The notes beneath the pieces were generated by a model. That model saw nothing but the letters and a program-made list of their open reading frames with translations. It made no database searches and was not told the DNA's origin. The translations under genes and the position numbers were made by a program. Positions 14,894 to 51,983 of a DNA stretch of 57,720 bases are shown piece by piece. This DNA is from a filamentous cyanobacterium CCP3. Its GTDB lineage: Bacteria > Cyanobacteriota > Cyanobacteriia > Phormidesmidales > Phormidesmidaceae. Position 1 is the first letter of the stretch; each line of letters begins with the position of its first letter. The stretch spans positions 1 through 57,720 of the forward strand of contig PYGV01000007.1 in NCBI GenBank assembly GCA_003022385.1. The letters run 5' to 3'.

Positions 14894-14920
14894 AGCCCCC
14901 GGCAGCAGTTGTCGGGGGCT
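14894..14920. terminator. Bidirectional rho-independent terminator
   Basis: A perfect 8-bp stem (AGCCCCCG / CGGGGGCT) with an 11-base loop sits between two convergent genes (antiporter and DoxX). The minus-strand transcript has a T-rich run after the stem; the plus side is followed by TTAATTAAAAA-like sequence. Confidence 0.7.
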
Positions 14921-38372: not shown

Positions 38373-38410
38373 AGCCCAATTTAGGTTTAATCAACCATTA
38401 CTTAAATCAA

Positions 38411-38442
38411 CCAGAGCTGCTAGCAGCTCTGGTTTTGTTTTG
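38411..38442 (+). terminator. Strong rho-independent terminator
   Basis: A perfect 24-bp palindrome (38411-38434, arms ACCAGAGCTGCT / AGCAGCTCTGGT) is followed by TTTGTTTT. It ends the 148-aa gene and lies before the stop of the convergent 359-aa gene. Confidence 0.88.
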
Positions 38443-51572: not shown

Positions 51573-51734
51573 CTACTGCCCCTGCCCAAATACCGCCTGC
51601 AACCGCAGCGCCAAAAAATGCAGCAGCCCCGGCGACAGCTGAGGATGAGGCGCGGTGTCGGCAATAATCAGCGTGGCCAGCAGAGCTAGCAACAGACGGT
51701 TCCACTTAAGATCTCGGTAAACGCGAGTGGCCAT
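51573..51734 (-). CDS. Possible 53-aa single-pass membrane protein
   Basis: ATG at 51732-51734. It encodes MATRVYRDLKWNRLL, a hydrophobic helix (LLLALLATLIIAD) and a short LLHFLALRLQAVFGQ amphipathic end, with codon use like neighbouring genes. It begins 4 bases after the stop of the ester-cyclase remnant and could have been its downstream partner. No clear ribosome-binding site. I cannot name a family. Confidence 0.45.
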   Translation of the reverse strand: MATRVYRDLKWNRLLLALLATLIIADTAPHPQLSPGLLHFLALRLQAVFGQGQ

Positions 51735-51737
51735 AGG

Positions 51738-51885
51738 TCATATCCAAGTATTGAGGGGGGCAGGCAGCCCCGCCAGGTGGGCCACAAAATCTGGGGCGAG
51801 CAGATCGATGGCCTTTGACGATCGCGCGATCGTCAAAGGCTTGGTAAACCTGAAGCGCCAGGTCTTGAGGTTTTGTCGTCAGCAT
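51738..51885 (-). pseudogene. Frameshifted, truncated SnoaL-like ester cyclase remnant
   Basis: From ATG 51883-51885 the frame reads MLTTKPQDLALQVYQAFDDR, then AIVKG. In the next frame the text continues AIDLLAPDFVAHLAG, then LPAPLNTWI and a TGA at 51738-51740. Joined, this is the first ~47 residues of a SnoaL-like polyketide-cyclase/ester-cyclase protein (YQAFDDR...LLAPDFVAH is the family's opening helix and strand). A net +1 (or -2) frameshift falls at the end of a perfect 30-bp palindrome, and the remaining ~80 residues of the domain are absent. It is divergent from the TetR gene, the usual position for a regulated target. Confidence 0.6.
51811..51840. repeat. Perfect 30-bp palindrome at the frameshift
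   Basis: Each 15-base arm begins GCCTTTGACGATCGC and meets its exact complement with no spacer; the centre GATCGCGCGATC resembles overlapping HIP1 octamers. No T-run follows on either strand, so it is not a terminator. It overlaps codons for AFDDRAIVKG of the ester-cyclase remnant. Confidence 0.9.
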
Positions 51886-51920: not shown

Positions 51921-51940
51921 ACCAAACTAAACGGTTTGGT
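51921..51940. promoter_or_regulatory. Putative TetR operator
   Basis: Inverted repeat ACCAAAC - 6 bases - GTTTGGT with perfect arms, midway between the divergent TetR gene and the ester-cyclase remnant. Its right arm overlaps the -35 of the plus-strand promoter, as expected for autorepression. Binding is inferred from position and symmetry. Confidence 0.55.
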
Positions 51941-51969: not shown

Positions 51970-51983
51970 GTATAGCGCTATAC
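51970..51983. promoter_or_regulatory. 14-bp perfect palindrome at the predicted transcription start
   Basis: GTATAGCGCTATAC, flanked by GAAG and ACTTC, which extend the symmetry with one bulged base. It could be a second operator or a 5'-end hairpin of the TetR mRNA. Confidence 0.4.

Follow-up and report, generated by a model that had tools for sequence, protein, structure and literature searches.

A decayed SnoaL-like gene (for an ester/polyketide cyclase-like protein) in a filamentous cyanobacterium very probably reached its present state through two successive mutations, an older deletion and then a template switch which perfected a quasipalindrome and so shifted the reading frame. The DNA analysed (the window, 57,720 nt) is one whole contig of a draft assembly of 519 contigs (genome G000), and the named relatives found by protein search place its host in or near Nodosilinea. 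The argument depends on comparison with the closest sister genome, which carries the same truncated gene with an imperfect palindrome and an unbroken frame.

The gene remnant and its relatives

The remnant lies at 51738..51885 on the minus strand and was delimited by means of orthologous ORFs of 156-159 aa in relatives and a three-frame translation. From the start codon (51885-51883) only N-terminal codons are left, and the stop of the original frame is at approximately 51738-51740. The minus-strand ORF 51885..51706 translates as MLTTKPQDLALQVYQAFDDR-AIVKG-HRSARP... and the three-frame translation showed that the orthologous frame (AIDLLAPDFVAHLAGLPAPL) is picked up again, in another frame, immediately beyond a palindrome. 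The change of frame falls within the downstream arm of this palindrome.

The remnant aligns to the N-terminus of intact SnoaL-like orthologues. An intact orthologue matches the SnoaL-like polyketide cyclase family PF07366 over most of its length (E 1.8e-32, 112.3 bits), whereas some two thirds of the domain are absent from the remnant, and the in-frame copy in the sister genome scores 14.2 bits, under the gathering cut-off of 28.4. The descent of the remnant from PF07366 members is seen from intact copies between the same neighbours, a TetR-family gene and a CHASE2-kinase gene, in nine genomes. We infer that the remnant is functionless. A second, intact copy of the gene was looked for in G000 and not found, a weak match to a different SnoaL-like protein being all that came up, and plasmid records gave no match.

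A protein search of 59 genomes, together with a DNA search of the locus, divided the relatives into three classes. Nine genomes of the genus carry the intact gene, of 156-157 aa, with the same genes on either side (G004, G005, G009, G011, G012, G013, G019, G021 and G022). G008 ("Filamentous cyanobacterium CCT1", PYER01000296.1), the closest sister genome, has the gene in the same place, truncated to 48 aa but still in frame (AFDDR-AID-WAVDLLAPDF); a TetR + CHASE2 tree pairs this genome with G000 at a support of 100. The third class, again of nine genomes (G007, G024, G027, G015, G010, G014, G018, G025 and G003), is without the gene at the locus, and no convincing remains of a decayed gene were found in these nine genomes, with one weak DNA match, in G010. 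Three of these genomes, G015, G024 and G010 (loci L024, L022 and L030), carry at another place an intact homologue of a different sequence type (L004, L005 and L006), which suggests either loss of the gene followed by regain or its relocation.

The palindrome and its imperfect counterpart

An inverted-repeat search located the palindrome at 51811..51840. It is perfect over 30 bp, as the first-pass annotation had stated: the arms (51811-51825 and 51826-51840) are of 15 nt each, 100% complementary, with a spacer of 0 nt and therefore no loop. Base composition by itself predicts about 7e-5 such palindromes per window. In 521 kb sampled from G000, however, there were five loop-free palindromes of at least 24 bp, two of them of 42 bp and none inside an ORF of at least 80 aa. 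As long loop-free palindromes are not rare in this genome, neither length nor rarity is decisive, and it is the comparison with G008 that decides. The window itself holds another perfect palindrome without a loop, of 26 bp, at 38409-38434, outside any ORF of at least 80 aa.

In the direction of the gene, the in-frame sequence of G008 is GGCCTTTGACGATCGCGCGATCG-ACTG-GGCC and the window reads GCCTTTGACGATCGCGCGATCG-TCAAA-GGCC. Pairwise and multiple alignment place the replaced segment, TCAAA for ACTG, at 51814..51818 on the minus strand; its net gain of one base is the frameshift, which belongs to the window alone. TCAAA faces TTTGA in the opposite arm, and the two are exact reverse complements. 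In G008 the palindrome is imperfect, with an inner core, CGATCGCGCGATCG, and outer GGCC/GGCC stems flanking a mismatched bubble. The 14-bp core (51819..51832 in the window) is common to both sisters and occurs in none of the intact orthologues. The longest perfect palindrome at the site thus measures 6 bp in the intact relatives, 14 bp in G008 and 30 bp in the window, so that the inverted repeat is closer to perfection in the derived window sequence than in either the G008 or the intact state. The predicted folds agree with this: the G008 hairpin is interrupted, with paired arms on either side of the bubble (-6.9 kcal/mol), and that of the window is unbroken (-14.6 kcal/mol). Beside the palindrome, in its upstream arm, the window reads AAGCC, one G fewer than the AAGGCC of G008, and for this reason the outer stem can be given as at least 3 bp but not surely as 4 or 5.

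The direction of the change follows from the relatives. The frame is kept in 15 intact relatives (nine of them at the locus in the genus), and intact orthologues both at the locus and elsewhere support the frame of G008 as ancestral. The truncated allele is represented by just two sequences, which leaves some room for the opposite polarity, with a perfect palindrome as the ancestral state and the in-frame G008 form derived from it. This is hardly conceivable, as all the intact orthologues match the frame and spacing of G008 (GAC/GAT, a codon, then GCC) and TCAAA is found in none of them; nor does any of them hold the perfect palindrome in frame, a finding that would have told against the first-pass annotation. 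That annotation had looked to intact orthologues for both a preserved frame and an imperfect palindrome over the AFDDR codons. The frame is indeed preserved, but the palindrome is not there, the longest perfect one being the 6 bp mentioned above. The upstream arm, GCCTTTGACGATCGC (51826..51840, minus strand), encodes A-F-D-D-R, codons present in almost all orthologues, and because this arm is conserved it is assigned as the template of the switch and the downstream arm as the one overwritten. The placing of the lesion also needs adjustment: the frame does shift, as had been noted, yet not exactly at the edge of the palindrome, since the replacement covers 51814-51818, whereas the palindrome extends to 51811.

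These observations are best accounted for as follows. In the lineage that had already lost part of the gene and had gained the 14-bp core, giving a quasipalindrome, synthesis across this structure would, in the lineage of the window only, have briefly copied the upstream arm (TTTGA) and not the parental strand. The switch would have written TCAAA over ACTG before synthesis went back to the correct template at the outer GGC/GGCC, leaving a palindrome perfect over 30 bp and one additional base to shift the reading frame. A single replication event would then lie behind the change, and the same sequence would result here from fold-back of the nascent strand and from switching to the other strand. 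At the level of the aligned sequences the bases themselves, their polarity, the order of events and the exact templating are established. The earlier suggestion that a template switch, in perfecting the palindrome, made the frameshift is therefore borne out by a sister copy that is imperfect and in frame, and by differing bases that reproduce the other arm exactly. G008 serves as a proxy for the starting sequence, and its ACTG could include later changes of its own.

Independent point mutations, together with the insertion of one base, could also have produced the palindrome by chance if the gene was no longer under selection. The gene was truncated beforehand and, outside the replaced segment, 18/138 aligned positions of the remnant differ between G000 and G008, so changes are evidently tolerated. 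But chance would have to supply, within 5 nt, one specific insertion and no fewer than three specific substitutions, for which the branch length in the tree gives about 4e-9, and even a random 4-to-5-base replacement would yield TCAAA just once in 1024. Stepwise intermediates were absent from the 28 genomes of the genus, in which the truncated allele occurs in only one sister, G008. Chance mutation is thus very improbable. By codon position, the G000/G008 changes number 3/1/1 before the palindrome and 3/2/8 after it; the third-position excess on the downstream side might reflect a recent shift or past constraint, in numbers too small to rely on.

An artefact of sequencing or assembly has to be considered, as G000 is a draft, the analysis used the assembled sequence, and hairpins are hard templates. 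A sequencing error had been named beforehand as a possible refutation. A simple base-call error fails to explain a templated 4-to-5-base replacement, which is neither a dropped nor a doubled base, and straight after the palindrome the window is collinear with the orthologous sequence, unlike fold-back chimeras. An artefact is very improbable.

A template-switch scan was run over 72.5 kb of aligned G000/G008 DNA, taking clusters of at least 3 changes within matches of 14 nt and using reversed and complemented sequences as controls. Clusters templated by the reverse complement were found at three places, with 0 in either control. At 10-11 nt the reversed control gave about as many matches as the real test, and only long matches are meaningful. 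The palindrome at 51811-51840 is one of the three places, and one of the other two is at approximately 14894-14920, where a terminator-like hairpin is apparently inverted between the two genomes (AGCCCCCGGCAGCAGTTGTCGGGGGCT vs AGCCCCCGACAACTACTGCCGGGGGCT).

The older deletion and the surrounding sequence

The first-pass annotation had also seen the palindrome as the origin of the lesion and had noted that the rest of the domain is missing. That this lesion ruined the gene is not supported. Comparison of the window with G008 and the intact relatives revealed a 3' deletion junction at 51750..51754 on the minus strand (approximate, with about 2 nt of uncertainty from microhomology), and it is identical in the two sisters (...CTCG/CTCA, then ATACTTGGATATGA). 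About 430-445 nt are missing relative to those intact relatives that retain the downstream spacer; the microhomology at the junction is 2 nt by eye. As both sisters end at the same junction, the deletion predates their split, and as the in-frame G008 copy already lacks the 3' part, the palindrome was not what inactivated the gene. The first of the two steps was a separate deletion in the common ancestor of G000 and G008, which took away the 3' two thirds of the gene along with the spacer that follows.

Directly behind the remnant is a 53-aa ORF (51573-51734, minus strand, MATRVYRDLKWNRLLLALLATLIIADTAPHPQLSPGLL...), which can be recognised in ten genomes of the genus, G000 among them. Its changes fall mostly at third codon positions and searches of Pfam and NCBIfam gave zero matches; the pattern suggests that it is probably a real, undescribed small protein. 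The deletion put the original stop of the remnant within a few bases of the start of this ORF (51734-51740). In the window the shifted frame overruns that start instead, and altered translational coupling of the remnant and the ORF is possible.

The palindrome might alternatively be a selected functional element, either a terminator or an operator for the neighbouring TetR-family regulator (TetR_N/TetR_C_7), whose start is about 280 bp away; the other long palindromes sampled in G000 do sit outside long ORFs. Such a role is highly improbable and was dropped: the palindrome is present in G000 only, an Rfam search with it was negative, and its hairpin is followed by no T-run on either strand. 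The conserved intergenic elements are two others. At 51928-51940, ACCAAACCGTTTA is conserved in 20/20 compared loci, and at 51970-51983 the GTAT(N6)ATAC element, as GTATAGCGCTATAC or a close variant, is present in 16/20. They are candidates for operator and promoter elements of the TetR-family gene and of the gene once partnered with it.

Relation to known systems

Mutation by template switching is an established mechanism in E. coli, phage T4 and yeast, and the palindrome described here is a new, well-resolved natural instance of it. The account of quasipalindrome correction in PMC7202029 includes the work of Ripley (1982), the thyA hotspot of E. coli and the lacZ reporters QP5 and QP6. As in those systems, an imperfect inverted repeat became perfect with bases copied from the other arm and the frame changed. 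Here, by contrast, the event was natural, took place between cyanobacterial species in a gene already truncated, and is read from compared sequences. Comparative genomics has been used to identify template-switch mutations in great apes (PMC7954356), RNA stems (PMC8794818) and yeast proteins (PMC8604942). The present case shares with these a phylogeny-based explanation of a multinucleotide cluster as one nearby reverse-complement copy, but two of the studies concern eukaryotic genomes (PMC7954356 and PMC8604942) and the third RNA genes, whereas here a bacterial gene remnant acquired a frameshift.

The 14-bp core holds two CGATCG words, and CGATCG is the centre of the HIP1 octamer GCGATCGC, described in PMC4390886 as abundant in cyanobacteria. 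It is conceivable, if rather unlikely, that HIP1-like words (GCGATCGC or CGATCG) act as ready cores for template switching in cyanobacteria, with palindromes growing stepwise (6, 14, 30 bp) and leaving characteristic multinucleotide changes and frameshifts. The remnant is an unusually clean natural case, its polarity being given by a sister species and intact relatives, in which one short template switch would explain a cluster that might otherwise be read as several substitutions and an insertion. Such events can mislead reconstructions of pseudogene histories, as the obvious lesion need not be the one that killed the gene.
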